Source: Bacillota bacterium
GTDB taxonomy: Bacteria > Bacillota > Dethiobacteria > DTU022
DNA: 43,771 nucleotides
NCBI GenBank assembly: GCA_016874655.1
Contig: VGTO01000004.1
Coordinates: 1-43,771 of the forward strand
Reading direction: 5' to 3'
Shown piece after piece: positions 24,819-31,961 of the stretch. Both the position numbers and the translations under genes were made by a program. Numbering within the stretch: position 1 is the stretch's first letter; every line of letters begins with the position of its first letter. The notes under the pieces are model-generated. The model had not been told where the DNA came from, ran no database searches, and was given only the letters and a program-made list of their open reading frames with translations.

Positions 24819-26000
24819 TTAGACTTCAACTGCTGCTGCCTGCTGGTTCATCTTTTTCTTCCTCACAATCAGGAAGTAAGTAAATACTCCGGCCAAGACA
24901 AGCAGCGCAATAGCCAGCAAGGGCCGATAAAAGATCCAGGCAATGGCGATGACCACAAAAGTCAGGATTATGGCGATCAACCCGGCGATTAAGCCAATCC
25001 CCGATGATAGCAAACGGCCGAGAAACGGCAAGACCACCCCAACAGTAGCTAAAGGCTTCAGTATTGTGTTGAGACCGATGAAAAAGAGGAAAAAGCCGAG
25101 GACTCTGAAGATCCAGGTCCGTAATACATTGGCCGCCTTGGCTGCTTCTATCATCTCTTCAGCAGAATGCATTCCCGGTCTTAAGATCTCGATCGTTGTA
25201 TTCTGTTCCGTTCGGAAAGGACCAATCTGTCCATTCATCACCCGGCCTAAGACCGATACCTGACCCGGTACCGCGTACTGGTGTGAAATTCTAACATCAC
25301 CGATCTGCGGAGTGCCGGGATTACCGATATAAATCTGGTTTTTGGAAATAGCTGCTTTTTCTAAGATGGGCTCGGGGATGTTCGCCAGGTCAGGATTGGT
25401 ATAATCAATAGGCTGGTTGGCCGAAATCTGACCGATCAGGCCTGGCGATAGAGTATAGGCGCCAATCATTACTAGTTGGACAGACCAGGACTGTCCCTGG
25501 TAAGGCATCTGGGCCGGATTGGCATTTCTGGTTCTGGCCTCGGGATCTTTAAAAGATGAAGACTGAATCAGCGATGAAGACCATACCGGCTCGTAGGTGT
25601 ATGTAGTGGTTGTTTCCTCGGTTCCGCCTACCTTTTCAACCGTTTCGGTGGTGGCGATCTCTTTCCACTGGTACATCTCAACCTGGCGGACAAGATGGAT
25701 CGCACCTATGCTGACTCCCAGTTCACTATCCACTAAAATTTCCGGGGTGGAGGTTTCACCGATGCCGTGAACAAACTGGCCTTCCATCTCCGGCGCCAGG
25801 CTATTCAGATCTGCCGCCACAACGCTGCCGGCACCCTCTTCCAAGCCTTTATAGACTCTTACAGCATAACCCTCATTAATCCATAACACCGGAAAAGCTG
25901 CAATAAAGAGGATTAATCCGATTAGGACTCCTTTAATCGAGCCCATCATCCGGTTACCGTAATTTTGTTTGGTAACCACCTTATATGGTTGATTAGCCAT
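24819..26000 (-). CDS. TMEM43-family membrane protein
   Basis: 393-aa protein matching the TMEM43 (LUMA, DUF1625) family, best known from an animal inner-nuclear-membrane protein and patchily present in bacteria. Architecture: N-terminal membrane helix GVLIGLILFIAAFPVLWINEG with the family's WINEG motif, a large extracytoplasmic domain of about 230 residues (including RQVEMYQWKE), then three or four C-terminal helices from about 305. ATG at 26000 behind GGGAGGGG removes seven residues from the listed ORF. Function in bacteria is unknown. It sits between mfd and the sigma-54 island, divergent from the latter. Confidence 0.8.
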   Translation of the reverse strand: MANQPYKVVTKQNYGNRMMGSIKGVLIGLILFIAAFPVLWINEGYAVRVYKGLEEGAGSVVAADLNSLAPEMEGQFVHGIGETSTPEILVDSELGVSIGAIHLVRQVEMYQWKEIATTETVEKVGGTEETTTTYTYEPVWSSSLIQSSSFKDPEARTRNANPAQMPYQGQSWSVQLVMIGAYTLSPGLIGQISANQPIDYTNPDLANIPEPILEKAAISKNQIYIGNPGTPQIGDVRISHQYAVPGQVSVLGRVMNGQIGPFRTEQNTTIEILRPGMHSAEEMIEAAKAANVLRTWIFRVLGFFLFFIGLNTILKPLATVGVVLPFLGRLLSSGIGLIAGLIAIILTFVVIAIAWIFYRPLLAIALLVLAGVFTYFLIVRKKKMNQQAAAVEV

Positions 26001-26149
26001 AGAAACCCCTCCCTTTATCAATAATTATTATAATGTAACAGGCCGCTAATCCTTGGACAACAAAGGAATCAGGGATTCTGATGACAAGATGATACCACGG
26101 CAGAAGAGCGCAAAGCAAGCTGAACTTATGCAAATTTGGGAAGTTACTG

Positions 26150-26194
26150 ACCTGTTTACCTGACAAACAAATGAAGGTAGCAAATGTTACCTGA
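26150..26194. promoter_or_regulatory. Candidate upstream activator sites for the sigma-54 promoter
   Basis: TTACCTGA occurs twice (26156-26163 and 26187-26194), 31 bp apart, near three helical turns. Overlapping symmetry elements are TGTTT-N7-AAACA and AGGTA-N8-TACCT (26175-26192). They lie about 150-190 bp upstream of the predicted start site, the usual distance for NtrC-type activators. Confidence 0.4.
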
Positions 26195-26320
26195 TTACGT
26201 CACATTAATACCGTATCCATTCTACAATCAGCAATAAGTTCAAGCATAACAGCATCGCCACAGTGAGCCAGGCCGAAGCAGGCCAGTGTTTACTAGTAAA
26301 TTTATTAAAGGATTGCTAGT

Positions 26321-26336
26321 TGGCACAAAGATTGCT
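26321..26336 (+). promoter_or_regulatory. Sigma-54 (RpoN) promoter of the FNT operon
   Basis: TGGCACAAAGATTGCT matches the -24/-12 consensus TGGCAC-N5-TTGCW exactly, with GG and GC separated by 10 nt. Predicted start near 26346, leader about 48 nt to the FNT ATG. The operon it drives ends in a sigma-54 activator gene. Confidence 0.88.
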
Positions 26337-26393
26337 TAAGTATGTTTCAGCAAGATTAATATGACGCAGCGAGAGAGAAAGGAGGCAATAACA

Positions 26394-27491
26394 ATGATCG
26401 ACAAGTGCGCATTCTGGAACGAATACGATTCAACAGCAGGGCATATCTGCTACTGTGAACTGGCCGCTTTTAACCGTCCGGTTAACCCTAATTTTCTGGA
26501 GGCCATCGGCTGCTCCAAAGAAAAACGGGTTGAATGCATGAAAACGATGGTGTATGCAACCGGAGCCGGGTTGGTCCCCGCAGAGCTGCCTGCACCAGTG
26601 TCTGCTCCCGCCACAGTTACCACACCGGTATTGTCCTGCGACCCGCCTGCAGAAATTGCCAAGACAGTGGTCGGAGTTGCTCAGAAAAAGGTTGCTACAG
26701 CAATTCCAGCCCTGATGATGTTGGCTATTCTCGCCGGTGCTTACATCGCCATGGGAGCAGTACTCTTTACCATTGTCACCAATGACTTAGCCTTATACAT
26801 TGGTGACGGCCTGAGCCGCCTGGTTGGGGGAGTTGCTTTTTCCCTGGGACTGATTCTGGTCGTATTGGGAGGAGCCGAATTATTCACCGGTAATAATTTG
26901 CTGGTCGCCGGCTATCTCGACAAAAAACTTAGCGGCAGACAGGTTCTTACCAACTGGTTCTGGGTTTATCTGTTCAACTTTGTTGGAGCCCTGGTGATCG
27001 TAGTGCTCTTTTACTACTCAGGGATCTGGAAAGCCAATGACGGAGGAGTAGTGACCAGAATCATTAACATCGCCGTGGCTAAGAGCAGCCTGACCTGGAG
27101 CGAGGCCCTGTTCAGGGGCATCCTCTGCAATTGGCTGGTCTGCCTGGCGGTCTGGCTTTCGCTGGCCGGCAAAGATGCAATCAGCAAGATTTTGGGAATC
27201 ATGATTCCGATCAGCGCTTTTGTCGCGGCCGGATTCGAACACTCGATTGCTAACATGTACTTCATTCCAATGGGTTTGATGCTGAAAAGCAGTGCTTTAG
27301 CCCAGGGACTTTTCACGCCGGCCGTGCTGCAGAGTTTGAGCTGGCAGGCTTTCTTCATCAACAACCTGGTACCGGTAACTATCGGCAACATTATCGGCGG
27401 AGTAGTCTTCGTGGCGATCGCCTACTGGACCTGCTATCTACGGCCACTGATGTCGAAAGAGATTGCCGTCAGTGCAAAGTTGCATATTTAA
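26394..27491 (+). CDS. Formate/nitrite transporter family channel with N-terminal Cys-rich domain
   Basis: Pentameric FNT-family anion channel for formate or related small anions. The membrane part (residues about 100-355) has the omega-loop GGAELFTGN (Thr165), LCNWLVCLAVW (near 244), the central-His motif GFEHSIANMYFIPMG (His283) and the C-terminal TIGNIIGG, close to FocA. Unusually, residues 1-65 form a hydrophilic extension with Cys5, Cys21, Cys40 and Cys48 (plus Cys19), followed by an Ala/Pro linker. FNT proteins normally start directly with a short amphipathic helix. The same domain is encoded alone by the next gene. ATG at 26394 follows AGGAGG at 8 nt; product 365 aa. Transcribed from a sigma-54 promoter. 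Formate rather than nitrite is an inference from FocA-like motifs and nearby fhs. Confidence 0.92.
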   Translation: MIDKCAFWNEYDSTAGHICYCELAAFNRPVNPNFLEAIGCSKEKRVECMKTMVYATGAGLVPAELPAPVSAPATVTTPVLSCDPPAEIAKTVVGVAQKKVATAIPALMMLAILAGAYIAMGAVLFTIVTNDLALYIGDGLSRLVGGVAFSLGLILVVLGGAELFTGNNLLVAGYLDKKLSGRQVLTNWFWVYLFNFVGALVIVVLFYYSGIWKANDGGVVTRIINIAVAKSSLTWSEALFRGILCNWLVCLAVWLSLAGKDAISKILGIMIPISAFVAAGFEHSIANMYFIPMGLMLKSSALAQGLFTPAVLQSLSWQAFFINNLVPVTIGNIIGGVVFVAIAYWTCYLRPLMSKEIAVSAKLHI

Positions 27492-27528: not shown

Positions 27529-27786
27529 ATGGAAAAAATGGTAAGTTGCCCGAACTGGAAAGAATACCAGAGCCTTAACGGATGGGTAATGTTTTGTGGG
27601 GCTGGCGCCTACGGCCGCAAACTGACGGCGCAGGAGGCACGCAGCTGCGGCTGCAATGAACTGCAAAGATCAAAATGCAAAAAAATCATGGAAAACAATG
27701 TCGGTTACGGCCTGGTTCCGGAAATCTGTGAAGAATCGTTTGCCGAGGAAGCAAGAACAAACCTGGAACCGGTAAAAATAGTTTAA
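27529..27786 (+). CDS. Small four-cysteine protein homologous to the FNT N-terminal domain
   Basis: 85-aa soluble protein that aligns without gaps to residues 3-62 of the preceding FNT channel: about 20 of 58 positions are identical, including all four cysteines (7, 23, 42, 50; spacing C-x15-C-x18-C-x7-C), the W-x-E-Y near the start and the closing GLVP. Extra Cys40 and Cys66 occur. The pattern suggests a small metal- or Fe-S-binding, or redox-active, module, but I do not recognise a named family. ATG at 27529 follows AGGGAG. It is 37 bp downstream of the FNT gene and surely co-transcribed. Likely origin is duplication of the channel's domain, or fusion in the other direction. Confidence 0.8.
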   Translation: MEKMVSCPNWKEYQSLNGWVMFCGAGAYGRKLTAQEARSCGCNELQRSKCKKIMENNVGYGLVPEICEESFAEEARTNLEPVKIV

Positions 27787-27821
27787 GGGGAAATCTGATC
27801 TTTTGCTCATACTGGAACATT

Positions 27822-27851
27822 AAAGGGGACACATTCTTTGGTGTCCCCTTT
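27822..27851 (+). terminator. GGGGAC hairpin between the Cys-rich gene and the ErcA-like gene
   Basis: AAAGGGGACAC-N8-GTGTCCCCTTT, perfect 11-bp stem with only three T residues at its 3' end. It may partially terminate or process the transcript so that channel genes are expressed above regulator genes. A REP-like origin is possible. Confidence 0.55.
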
Positions 27852-28004
27852 AAGATGCTTAACCACCTTAATGAGATTGATCAAGTTAGATTTTTATCAA
27901 GTGGGCATCATAAAATAATGGTTTTTCAGAAGAAGCAGGTATTACCACCGATTATATCGAAGGTTCATGCAGAAAAAGATCTGCTAAAGGAGGAGGGTCA
28001 TAGG

Positions 28005-29174
28005 GTGTATACCAGTAAATTCGTGACCCCGGAAATTATTTTTGGTACCGGATCACTGGACCAGATTGGCGAATGCTGCAGCCGACTGGGTTCAACGAAG
28101 GTTTTTCTGGTCGCCGACCAGGGCATCGAACGCTGCGGCTGGGTGGATAAGGCCCTGGTTTTCTTACGCGAAGCCAGTCTTGACCACTTTCTGTGGAGTG
28201 ACTTTTCTGCCAACCCCCGCGATTTTGAAGTAGAGGAAGGATGCAAGCGTTACTTAAAAGCAGGCTGTGACGCCGTTTTGGCGATTGGCGGCGGTAGCGC
28301 TGTCGACATTGCCAAGGCTGTAGCCACCTTGTCAACCAACCCTGGCCGGATCCACGATTACGAAGGTATCGATATGATCCAGGAACCACTCCCTCCGCTG
28401 ATTGTTGTTCCATCCACTGCCGGCTCCGGCGCCGAGGTATCACAGTTTGCCATAATCTCTGACAGTAAACGTAAAATAAAAATGACCATCATTTCAAAAT
28501 CTCTGGTCCCTGATATCGCGGTTTCCGACCCCCTTATACTTTCCACTGTCAACAGCAAACTGACTGCCAACACCGGCATGGAGGCGTTAAGCCATGCTGT
28601 GGAAGCTTACCTCTCCCTTGCAGCCACGGATATGACAGATATTCATGCCCTGCAAGCGATCAGGCTAATCGCAGCCAGCTTACGCTCATCGGTGGCCAGC
28701 CAGGTTGATGAAGCGGCCAAGATTGCCATGGGCCAGGCCAGCCTGCATGCCGGTATTGCTTTCTCTAACGCCGTACTGGGCCTGACTCACGCTATGACGC
28801 ACCAGATTGGCGGCCTCTTTGATCAACCGATCGGTTCGATTAGCGCCGTTTTGTTGCCATACGTGATGCGTTTTAACATGATTGCCTGTATTGACAAGTA
28901 TGCCGCCATTGCTGAAGCAATGGGCGCGCAGACCAAACATCTCACAAAGCGTGAAGCAGCAGAAATGGCGATCGAGATGGTCCGTGAGTTGGCCCGCGAT
29001 GTGGGGATACCGGCCGGTCTGGCCGAATTAGAGCTACCGGAGGAAGCTATTCCTGAACTAAGCCGCAACGCGATGAACGATGCCTGCTTTATTACCAACC
29101 CCCGTGATGCTGATGAGGATGATATCAGCAATATCTTTCGTGAAGTTTTAAAAACCAGGGGAGGTGAGCATTAA
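28005..29174 (+). CDS. Iron-type alcohol dehydrogenase homologue, ErcA-like, altered metal site
   Basis: 389-aa group III ADH fold. NAD-binding GGGSAVDIAKA (near residue 90) and PSTAGSGAEV (near 132) are intact. Compared from memory with E. coli FucO, the metal ligands Asp196, His200, His263 and His277 correspond here to Glu (GMEALSHAVEAY), His, His (GLTHAMTHQIGG) and Ile (DQPIGS instead of TPHGV). Two of four ligands are thus changed. Together with the adjacent kinase and activator genes this recalls ErcA, an ADH-like regulatory protein of the Pseudomonas ethanol-oxidation network. A sensory role is inferred; weak enzyme activity is not excluded. GTG at 28005 behind GGAGGG replaces the listed start 50 codons upstream. 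The stop overlaps the kinase ATG by one base. Confidence 0.82.
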   Translation: MYTSKFVTPEIIFGTGSLDQIGECCSRLGSTKVFLVADQGIERCGWVDKALVFLREASLDHFLWSDFSANPRDFEVEEGCKRYLKAGCDAVLAIGGGSAVDIAKAVATLSTNPGRIHDYEGIDMIQEPLPPLIVVPSTAGSGAEVSQFAIISDSKRKIKMTIISKSLVPDIAVSDPLILSTVNSKLTANTGMEALSHAVEAYLSLAATDMTDIHALQAIRLIAASLRSSVASQVDEAAKIAMGQASLHAGIAFSNAVLGLTHAMTHQIGGLFDQPIGSISAVLLPYVMRFNMIACIDKYAAIAEAMGAQTKHLTKREAAEMAIEMVRELARDVGIPAGLAELELPEEAIPELSRNAMNDACFITNPRDADEDDISNIFREVLKTRGGEH

Positions 29175-30355
29175 TGGTTATTAGGAGCAAAAAAATATTA
29201 ATCGAAAAACTTACCGGTGTACACAGTTCAAAAAAGTCATACTATGTTGCCCTGAAGAATAAAATCAACGAGCTACTGGAGATTAAACGCGACTGGGAGG
29301 TTACTTTTTCCGCTGTCACCGATCTTCTGGTCTTTATCAACCAGGATTATGAGATCCAGCGTGTAAATCAGGCGGCTACCGATTTTTTTACAATGCCCGA
29401 GGAAAAAGTGGTCGGCGCAAAGTGTTACCAGATTTTTTACGGCCGCGAAGCAAAATGCAATCCCTGCCTGGGAGATCAGGTGCTGCAATCCCAAAAAACG
29501 TCATACCAGCAATCGCGGACCCGTTATAACCGTGTGCTCGATATTTTTGCCTACCCTGCCTTCACCGAGCAGGACGAACCTTACGGCGTAACCTATTACG
29601 CTAAGGATGTTACCCGTTTTGTAGATTCGATCAAACTGGTTTCAATGGGTGAAATGTCAGCCGGAGTGGCCCACGAGTTAAACAGCCCGCTGACCGCTAT
29701 AGTTGGCAACGCCCAACTGCTGCTGAGGGAATCTGATCCTGATAATCCACAGCACCAGCTGATCAAAGACATACACAGCAGCGGAATTCGCTGCCAGCGG
29801 ATCATCAAAAACCTACTGACCTTCTCGCGGCAGGATGAGTTTTCTTTTGAGGATGTCAACCTAAACGATGTGGTTGACAGTGCTTTAGCCCTTGCTACTT
29901 ACCAGATCGAAAAAAGCAGAATTGAACTGCTTGTCAATAAACACCCGGATATTCCTAAGATTTCGGGCAGTGCGAACAGCCTGGAGCAAATTATCGTAAA
30001 CCTGCTGCTTAACGCCAGAGATGCTGTAGAAAGCAAGTTTCAGGCCGGAGGTAAAAATGGAACAATCGGCCAGATCACATTGGATACCAGACTTCACCCT
30101 GAGGGGGAACTTGCCCTGGTTGAAATCTCCGATAACGGCTGCGGTATTGAACAGGACGATATCCCCCAGATTTTTAATCCATTTTTCACTACCAAGCAAA
30201 GTGGTAAAGGCACCGGTCTTGGCCTCTCAGTCAGCCTGGGCATCGCCCAGGCCCATGGCGGGTTCATCGATGTGCAGACCGTAATTGGTCAGGGCAGCAC
30301 TTTTAGCCTGATTCTGCCGCTGAAGAAGGCTGACTGTGAAAGCGAAGAGAGCTGA
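29174..30355 (+). CDS. PAS-domain histidine kinase with Cys triad
   Basis: Soluble sensor kinase of 393 aa with no membrane segment. A PAS domain (about 42-150) contains Cys84, Cys95 and Cys98 in GAKCYQIFYGREAKCNPC, a pattern seen in PAS domains suspected of redox or metal sensing. The H-box is GVAHELNSPLTAI (His167). ATP-binding motifs are NLLLNARDAV (N), DNGCGI (G1), FNPFFTTK (F) and GKGTGLGLSVS (G2). ATG overlaps the ErcA-like stop (TAATG) with GGGAGGTGA upstream, so translation is coupled. The downstream sigma-54 activator is its likely partner. The signal is unknown. Confidence 0.92.
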   Translation: MVIRSKKILIEKLTGVHSSKKSYYVALKNKINELLEIKRDWEVTFSAVTDLLVFINQDYEIQRVNQAATDFFTMPEEKVVGAKCYQIFYGREAKCNPCLGDQVLQSQKTSYQQSRTRYNRVLDIFAYPAFTEQDEPYGVTYYAKDVTRFVDSIKLVSMGEMSAGVAHELNSPLTAIVGNAQLLLRESDPDNPQHQLIKDIHSSGIRCQRIIKNLLTFSRQDEFSFEDVNLNDVVDSALALATYQIEKSRIELLVNKHPDIPKISGSANSLEQIIVNLLLNARDAVESKFQAGGKNGTIGQITLDTRLHPEGELALVEISDNGCGIEQDDIPQIFNPFFTTKQSGKGTGLGLSVSLGIAQAHGGFIDVQTVIGQGSTFSLILPLKKADCESEES

Positions 30356-30449
30356 ATGTGTAAAATAAATCAGCTGATAAGCCACTGAGGGTTCTACCTT
30401 TCTGAATAGCCGGATCCCGATTTGCCCGGGTTTACACTGGAGGTTGAAT

Positions 30450-31961
30450 ATGTCAAGCAAAGCATCTTTTCTGATTGTTGATGACGAGCAGGAAGTCTGC
30501 AATTTTTTTAGCTACCTGCTCAAGCAAAAGGGGTACCGGGTGATTACCGCCAACTCCGGAACCGAGGCTATGGAAATAATTGCAGAAAATCACTTTAATA
30601 CAGCCCTGGTTGACCTAAAACTACCTGATGCCAACGGCCTTGATATCCTGAAAGCAATAAAAGGAAGGCAACCTGACTGCGAAGTAATCATTATTACCGG
30701 CTACTCAACTGTCAAGTCTGCGGTTGAGGCGATTCAGCTCGGCGCTTTAGATTACGTAGAAAAACCTTTTGTTGATATCAACGAGATGGAAGCACTGCTT
30801 GATAAATCTCTGACTGTCAGGCCGGTAAGTGAAGAACTCTCCAAAGCAATACAGGAACAGGGTTTTATAATCGGCCGCAGTCAGAAGATGCTGAATTTAA
30901 TATCAGCCGCACAGAAGATCGCTAAAAAAAATATCACCATCCTGATCCAGGGGGAGACTGGCACCGGCAAGGAAGTGCTGGCACGGTACATTCATTCTGT
31001 CAGTCATCGCAGCGATCGTCCTTTTCTCGCTTTTAACTGCGGAGCCTTCACTGAAACACTGCTGGAGAGCGAACTTTTCGGCCACGAAAAAGGCTCCTTT
31101 ACCGGGGCAACTCACCGCAAAAAGGGAATCTTTGAACTGGCCCACAAAGCGACTCTTTTTCTGGATGAAATCGACTCAGCAAGTCCGGCGATTCAGATTA
31201 AGCTGCTAAGGGTTCTGGAAACTGGTGAATTCTTAAGGGTCGGTGGTGAAGAGATGTGCAAGATTGATGTCCGAATTATCACCGCCACTAATGCCGACCT
31301 AGCTGGTAAAGTTGCTGAAAACAAGTTCCGGGAAGATCTTTTTTACCGCCTTGACGTAGCATCCCTAAATATTCCGCCTCTTCGCGAACGGCAAGAAGAC
31401 ATTGAGCTGTTTATAGAGTTTTTCCTGGGTAAAGAAGCGCAGGCCAAACAGATTTCCCTGAAGCAGTTTAGCCCTGAAGCACTGGAGTTGATCAAAAAGC
31501 ATGAGTGGCCCGGAAATATTCGTGAACTTTCCAACACTGTCGCCCAGGCGCTGCTACTGAGCAAGGGCAATCTAATTGAAGTCGAGGACCTACCAGAGCG
31601 AATCCGTCGGGAATTCAAAATAAATAATTTGGAGAGCCTTGAGCAGCAGATGACAGCTGCAGTAAGCAAATCTGCTTTTGCCTGTCTTCCTGAGACGGGA
31701 GAAAAACTAAACAGTCTGCTCAATCAGTTTGCAGACAATCTTTTTAACGCTATAACTTTTCGTGAAGGGTTTGATTTTGAACTTTTCAATACCGAAATTA
31801 GCAACTGGCGCGACGACTTGCTCGCCACTTTAATTGAAAAAGCACTGGATGACACTTACGGTAATCAGGTCAAGGCCGCTGAACTGCTGCAGGTAACCCC
31901 GCGTGCTTTACGGTACCACCTGCAAAAAGCACGTAAGAAAGATAATACAAACCAGAGCTAG
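30450..31961 (+). CDS. NtrC-family sigma-54 response regulator
   Basis: Three-domain activator, 503 aa. Receiver domain (1-120) with Asp11/Asp12, phospho-acceptor Asp55 in ALVDLKLP, and EKPF Lys. The AAA+ domain has Walker A GETGTGKE, the sigma-54-contacting loop GSFTGA (variant of GAFTGA), Walker B ATLFLDEID and PPLRERQEDI. The C-terminal Fis-type HTH reads NQVKAAELLQVTPRALRYHL. An extra stretch of about 90 residues lies between the AAA+ and HTH parts. ATG at 30450 behind GGAGG at 6-7 nt; the listed TTG start overlaps the SD and is rejected. Its stop codon TAG overlaps the pth stop in a shared CTAG. It most likely activates the sigma-54 promoter at 26321. Confidence 0.93.
   Translation: MSSKASFLIVDDEQEVCNFFSYLLKQKGYRVITANSGTEAMEIIAENHFNTALVDLKLPDANGLDILKAIKGRQPDCEVIIITGYSTVKSAVEAIQLGALDYVEKPFVDINEMEALLDKSLTVRPVSEELSKAIQEQGFIIGRSQKMLNLISAAQKIAKKNITILIQGETGTGKEVLARYIHSVSHRSDRPFLAFNCGAFTETLLESELFGHEKGSFTGATHRKKGIFELAHKATLFLDEIDSASPAIQIKLLRVLETGEFLRVGGEEMCKIDVRIITATNADLAGKVAENKFREDLFYRLDVASLNIPPLRERQEDIELFIEFFLGKEAQAKQISLKQFSPEALELIKKHEWPGNIRELSNTVAQALLLSKGNLIEVEDLPERIRREFKINNLESLEQQMTAAVSKSAFACLPETGEKLNSLLNQFADNLFNAITFREGFDFELFNTEISNWRDDLLATLIEKALDDTYGNQVKAAELLQVTPRALRYHLQKARKKDNTNQS

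Follow-up and report, generated by a model that had tools for sequence, protein, structure and literature searches.

An ErcA-like alcohol dehydrogenase homologue with two replaced metal ligands, encoded with a histidine kinase and a sigma-54 regulator beside an FNT-family channel: a probable signaling subunit

The gene module around the ErcA-like gene

The window analyzed here is a 43,771-nucleotide stretch of DNA from a Bacillota bacterium. It contains a module that encodes, in this order, a FocA-like channel of the FNT family, a small protein with four cysteines (the 4-Cys protein), an ErcA-like homologue of iron-containing alcohol dehydrogenases (Fe-ADH), a PAS-containing histidine kinase and a sigma-54-dependent response regulator (Table 1). 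This order was found in nearly all orthologous loci. The genes outside the block from the FNT gene to the regulator gene vary among the loci, several of which end at contig edges. The kinase and regulator genes adjoin the ErcA-like gene in nearly all members whatever the flanks, and the kinase gene is co-directional with it, as expected of ErcA. That a kinase gene and a sigma-54 activator gene lie next to the ErcA-like gene had been noted from the DNA by itself, and Pfam domain matches bore this out. In the window, the ErcA-like gene and the kinase gene overlap, the stop codon of the former with the start codon of the latter. One locus is an exception (L046), as the 1.1 kb of upstream sequence present on its contig carries a different gene and no FNT gene. 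Three loci have a second FNT gene between the 4-Cys gene and the ErcA-like gene (L039:2057-3133, L044:623-1807 and L059:3682-4743). Divergent from the FNT gene of the window is a gene for a bacterial TMEM43-family membrane protein (24819-26021).

The mechanical open reading frame (ORF) of the FNT gene begins at 26361, and a ribosome-binding site precedes 26394. The FNT protein scored 251 bits against TIGR00790, above the cut-off of 232, and 248 bits against the FocA equivalog TIGR04060, for which the cut-off is 290. Judging from its sequence, the substrate of this channel may be formate. The 4-Cys protein is similar to the N-terminus of the FNT protein (E 5e-8), and the pattern C..WKEY..LNGW.MFC...GC...C describes the four-cysteine domain in both. 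No Pfam family matched this domain at its cut-off, with DUF2769 giving a weak, sub-threshold match, and the model of the 4-Cys protein is of low confidence (pLDDT 67). A third copy of the domain stands alone in the same genome (G000:C42, L141:2906-3163). The 4-Cys protein at L042:7398-7847 and L043:3762-4214 has a C-terminal extension which, by eye, resembles an excisionase-type helix-turn-helix.

The ErcA-like gene likely begins with a GTG codon and encodes 389 amino acids. An ATG at 27855 was ruled out as its start because the GTG at 28005 follows a ribosome-binding site (GGAGGAGGG) and homology sets in only slightly upstream of this codon; the longer frame is a mechanical ORF only. Between the 4-Cys gene and the ErcA-like gene there is a perfect 13-bp inverted repeat, TTAAAGGGGACAC-N8-GTGTCCCCTTTAA (27820-27853), the left arm and loop of which occur once in the genome. 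This repeat may be a terminator or an attenuator that splits the module.

Table 1. Coordinates of the module and of its candidate regulatory elements in the window.
Feature	Position	Strand	Basis
Candidate upstream activator site ATGTTACCTGATTACGTCACAT, one mismatch to TGAC-N8-GTCA	26184..26205	+	Palindrome in orthologous loci
Sigma-54 -24/-12 promoter TGGCACAAAGATTGCT of FNT operon	26321..26336	+	Only consensus site in window
FNT-family channel, FocA-like, with N-terminal 4-Cys domain (26403-26585)	26394..27491	+	PF01226, 269 bits; FocA best PDB match
Small 4-Cys protein, paralogous to FNT N-terminal domain	27529..27786	+	Conserved in orthologous loci
ErcA-like group III Fe-ADH homologue, Glu/His/His/Ile metal site	28005..29174	+	FucO alignment, NCBIfam, tree, model
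Codon GAG, Glu at FucO Asp196 position (GMEALSHA)	28581..28583	+	FucO alignment
Codon ATC, Ile at FucO His277 position (DQPIGS)	28830..28832	+	FucO alignment
PAS-HisKA histidine kinase	29174..30355	+	Pfam HisKA, HATPase_c, PAS
Kinase N-terminal segment LTGVHSSKKSYYVALK, candidate docking site for ErcA-like protein	29210..29257	+	Common to ErcA-adjacent kinases
Sigma-54-dependent response regulator (receiver, AAA+, Fis-type HTH)	30444..31961	+	Pfam; adjacent in nearly all orthologous loci

Family assignment, metal ligands and NAD site of the ErcA-like protein

Matches to Pfam PF00465 (161 bits) and PF25137 (184 bits) place the ErcA-like protein in the group III iron-containing ADH family. Its AlphaFold2 model (pLDDT 87) has TM-scores of 0.91-0.94 with Bacillus methanol dehydrogenases, 1,3-propanediol oxidoreductase and E. 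coli FucO (about 0.92 for FucO, PDB 1rrm). The top NCBIfam model for the protein was ErcA (NF041833) with 459.8 bits, which is 113 bits more than the next model at 347. Since this score is under the equivalog cut-off of 550, we refer to the protein as ErcA-like instead of ErcA. The ErcA model ranked first for every kinase-linked member scanned, always with a score below the cut-off. The sequence-only reading had suggested a regulatory role like that of ErcA. The margin of the ErcA model and the conserved pairing with the kinase and regulator genes support this suggestion well, with the reservation of the sub-cut-off score. In the phylogenetic tree, the ErcA-type clade is split from the canonical ADHs with a support of 100/99. 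Two further matches, in Acinetobacter and Vibrio, look like canonical ADHs and have no kinase next to them. Searches of plasmids for ErcA yielded actinobacterial ErcA-like genes.

The metal ligands were examined using E. coli FucO as the reference for numbering, and the alignment is unambiguous around the sites. The FucO ligands Asp196, His200, His263 and His277 correspond to Glu, His, His and Ile in the window protein, so that the four-ligand site of the family is not present. Both replacements had been recognized before any alignment, and a proper alignment did not restore the four ligands. His200 (28593-28595), His263 (28788-28790) and the non-ligand His267 are retained. The three other family members in the same genome have intact Asp/His/His/His sites.

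Searches through 98 genomes of the class, 399 of the phylum and the GTDB contig collection found orthologues, 69-82% identical, in Syntrophomonadaceae-like metagenome-assembled genomes. Glu and Ile are present in 27/27 clade sequences that are readable at both positions, the window included. This agreement rules out chance, misalignment or sequencing error at the ligand sites, and the Glu/Ile replacement is a fixed trait of this lineage of anaerobes. One clade member additionally has His263 replaced by Gln (G021, L055). The Glu/Ile group is a single clade with a support of 100/100, nested in the ErcA-type clade. The question whether the ErcA family as a whole shares the substitutions was answered in the negative: all four ligands are found in 29 of 29 distant ErcA-type relatives, which are 49-59% identical and come from many Bacillota families, and also in the actinobacterial relatives read. 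The median pairwise dN/dS of the ErcA-like gene is 0.07 (107 unsaturated pairs), which indicates purifying selection and rules out a decaying gene. When 26 Glu/Ile sequences were compared with 29 Asp/His sequences, only 7 positions emerged at which the first set is fixed and most of the second set differs; two of these 7 are the metal ligands. Neither clade varies at the residues that contact NAD in FucO, which are Asp39, Asn71, Gly97, Gly98, Ser99, Asp102 and Lys162 in FucO numbering. The earlier impression that the NAD site is kept therefore holds, and the protein has the features expected for NAD(P) binding.

Four genomes contain another ErcA-like protein, in which Asp196 is replaced by His or Asn and His277 by Ala (loci L146-L149; L122, L156, L157 and L158). 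As in the Glu/Ile clade, Asp196 and His277 are both replaced, His200 and His263 are retained, and a kinase and a sigma-54 regulator are encoded alongside. Unlike in the Glu/Ile clade, the neighboring target genes form a molybdenum hydroxylase operon, which has a sigma-54 site to itself. The best tree separates the two lineages, and a single common origin is not rejected (p-AU 0.167).

The changed metal site should abolish the usual chemistry, and the residues present suggest a loss of both the metal and alcohol oxidation. Glu is able to coordinate metals, and Zn or Fe could still be bound by three ligands, Glu193, His197 and His262. Maleylacetate reductases, which belong to the same superfamily, are held to need no metal, and lost ligands are therefore no proof of lost catalysis. 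It is conceivable, but in our view unlikely, that the ErcA-like protein is still an enzyme that uses a Glu-His-His site or no metal to convert an unusual substrate with NAD(H), such that signaling depends on turnover as proposed for YiaY. The potential Glu ligand, the two retained His ligands, the NAD site, His267 and the strong purifying selection would all fit such an enzyme, as would the suggestion in the literature that alcohol sensing by YiaY may take place through oxidation of the alcohol (PMC10308882, PMC12997753). However, His277 is Ile in every member and one member is also without His263, and the FNT-type loci have no neighboring genes for alcohol or aldehyde catabolism. With two ligands lost, the NAD pocket kept and the gene encoded together with a kinase and an activator, the protein is probably part of a sensor rather than an enzyme.

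Candidate output promoter and kinase docking segment

In a weight-matrix scan for sigma-54 promoters, 15-20.2 of 20.2 bits were obtained at the place of the FNT promoter in nearly all FNT-type loci, and the scores were far lower in front of the other four genes of the module. Related loci amounting to about 0.76 Mb contain 53 consensus sigma-54 sites, of which 23 are before FNT genes, 14 before canonical Fe-ADH genes and several before aldehyde oxidoreductase genes. FNT-type loci have a strong site at the FNT gene, and intact-type loci have theirs at the neighboring Fe-ADH and aldehyde oxidoreductase genes. In these metal-intact relatives, the trio of ErcA-like, kinase and regulator genes is usually beside a canonical Fe-ADH gene and often beside aldehyde ferredoxin oxidoreductase genes. 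The canonical ADH that neighbors the trio in L049 has E. coli YiaY (PRK09860) as its best NCBIfam match.

In 18 of 21 FNT loci (shuffled mean 1.4) the promoter has a TGAC-N8-GTCA palindrome 76-200 bp ahead of it; this count is descriptive, since the loci counted are those in which the motif was first recognized. The palindrome is largely absent from ADH-type loci (1/15). The likely output of the module, which the sequence-only reading did not mention, consists of the FNT channel and the 4-Cys protein with the sigma-54 promoter and the site upstream of it. Alternatively, the regulator may not control the FNT operon, in which case another activator would use the promoter and the genes would be neighbors by common descent only. 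The way in which the palindrome was counted leaves room for this alternative, yet the block from the FNT gene to the regulator gene is kept while its outer flanks vary, the FNT promoter is the sole sigma-54 site in the window, and the intact-type trios also adjoin sigma-54-controlled genes. We consider it improbable, and control of the FNT operon by the regulator is the likelier reading.

The N-terminal segment LTGVHSSKKSYYVALK of the kinase is common to ErcA-adjacent kinases of two kinase classes and two phyla. It is kept even in kinases, such as that of the window, that lack the GAF domain found behind the segment in other members. Further carriers of the segment are HisKA_3-type kinases whose partners are short response regulators (L116, L121 and L124) and kinases encoded on actinobacterial plasmids directly after an ErcA-like gene. 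An intact-ligand ErcA-like gene and a kinase gene are found beside an NDMA-dependent methanol dehydrogenase gene in Tsukamurella (L133:4968-8130) and beside alkene/methane monooxygenase genes in Mycolicibacterium (L134:4899-7540). Among 2,992 ORFs, 46 matched a strict pattern of the segment and 56 a looser version, and every match was a kinase from an ErcA-containing locus; since the pattern was drawn from these very kinases, the informative part is its absence elsewhere. When a 43-residue segment of the window kinase was searched against the 98 class genomes, every match was either adjacent to an ErcA-like gene or at the end of a contig. We infer that the segment may be where the ErcA-like protein docks, which agrees with an AlphaFold3 model of Pseudomonas YiaY and its kinase in which the contact is predicted between the N-terminal domains (PMC12997753). 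The sequence-only reading had suggested binding to the PAS domain of the kinase. Because the N-terminus is conserved across kinase classes, a contact with the extreme N-terminus is predicted to be likelier.

The kinase PAS domain has a KCY...C..C segment, which is present in distant ErcA-partner kinases too and could bind a metal or a cofactor. A point against a sensory role of the ErcA-like protein is that the PAS domain could be the real sensor. The ErcA-like protein would then be only a structural scaffold for the kinase, a reading with which the conserved cysteines of the PAS domain are compatible and for which the N-terminal segment could be purely a docking site. We regard this as very unlikely, as none of the 26 sequences compared deviates at the NAD site and a scaffold has no need of such a site.

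Proposed signaling role and comparison with known systems

ErcA/YiaY of Pseudomonas and its kinase are required for the induction of alcohol oxidation (PMC12997753, PMC10308882, PMC7427536). Their signaling mechanism has been called unresolved, and the models are alcohol binding or alcohol oxidation (PMC12997753, PMC10308882). ErcA of P. aeruginosa and YiaY of P. putida, with the hybrid kinase ErcS/YiaZ, resemble the window system in that a group III ADH homologue is encoded beside a histidine kinase and NF041833 is the best model; they are needed for metabolic-gene induction, with an N-terminal contact predicted (PMC12997753). Compared through the family model and published descriptions, the window protein differs in its score under the equivalog cut-off and probably in its two replaced ligands, and its partner is a non-hybrid PAS kinase. 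The output is a sigma-54 response regulator in the window and the LuxR-type AgmR/ErbR in Pseudomonas, while the likely targets are the FNT channel operon and alcohol oxidation, respectively.

Also comparable are the intact-ligand trios of other Bacillota (L049, L099, L104 and others), which have the same three genes at 49-59% identity, the kinase N-terminal segment and sigma-54 promoters on neighboring genes. They differ in keeping Asp/His/His/His and in having canonical Fe-ADH and aldehyde ferredoxin oxidoreductases as neighbors. AdhR of Clostridium beijerinckii likewise exerts sigma-54 control over ADH genes (adhA) in Bacillota, but it is a one-component GAF-PAS activator with neither a dehydrogenase-like subunit nor a kinase (PMC7017808, PMC6615313). 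FucO, the lactaldehyde reductase of E. coli, shares the fold and the NAD-site residues; unlike the window protein, it is an enzyme of catabolism that retains all four metal ligands. No earlier description of a metal-site-less ErcA-type system was found in the mostly open-access literature searched, which covered pseudoenzyme sensors, H277A mutants and the pairing of group III ADHs with two-component systems, so that this result does not prove absence.

We propose as the probable explanation that the ErcA-like protein is a signaling subunit without the metal site and with the NAD(H) site kept, which sets the signal from the kinase to the sigma-54 promoter of the FNT operon, and that the system was retargeted from alcohol metabolism to a formate-type channel. 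The subunit would be derived from a group III iron alcohol dehydrogenase whose normal metal site is gone and whose NAD(H) site is complete. It would bind the LTGVHSSKKSYYVALK segment of the adjacent PAS kinase, and the activity of the kinase would be altered by the occupant of the NAD/substrate pocket. The NAD+/NADH state would be the first candidate for the signal; the second would be a small molecule, either a carboxylate, for instance formate, or an aldehyde. Sensing of NAD or of an aldehyde, put forward in the sequence-only reading, may thus be the function of the subunit. The kinase would phosphorylate the sigma-54 response regulator, which would bind the palindrome near 26184-26205 and drive the promoter at 26321-26336, leading to production of the FNT channel and the 4-Cys protein. 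In this scheme we infer the docking to the kinase, the ligand of the pocket and the direction of the signal.

A broader and considerably more tentative idea is that ErcA-type homologues serve histidine kinases of at least two phyla as a general plug-in sensor, recognized by the short N-terminal docking segment. Retargeting away from alcohol metabolism, to an FNT channel or a molybdenum hydroxylase, might then have been accompanied by loss of the metal site to give a metal-free sensor of NAD(H) or a carboxylate that informs a sigma-54 regulator of the redox or formate status.

The module, kept under strong selection with half of the metal ligands lost, amounts to a natural experiment on ErcA/YiaY signaling. 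This combination points to signaling by pocket occupancy rather than by alcohol oxidation. The short kinase segment is offered as a candidate docking site, along with a regulator site and a promoter. In syntrophic bacteria, formate carries electrons from one species to another. If the FNT protein carries formate, relatives of these bacteria would have in this system a candidate for a dedicated regulator of their formate flux.
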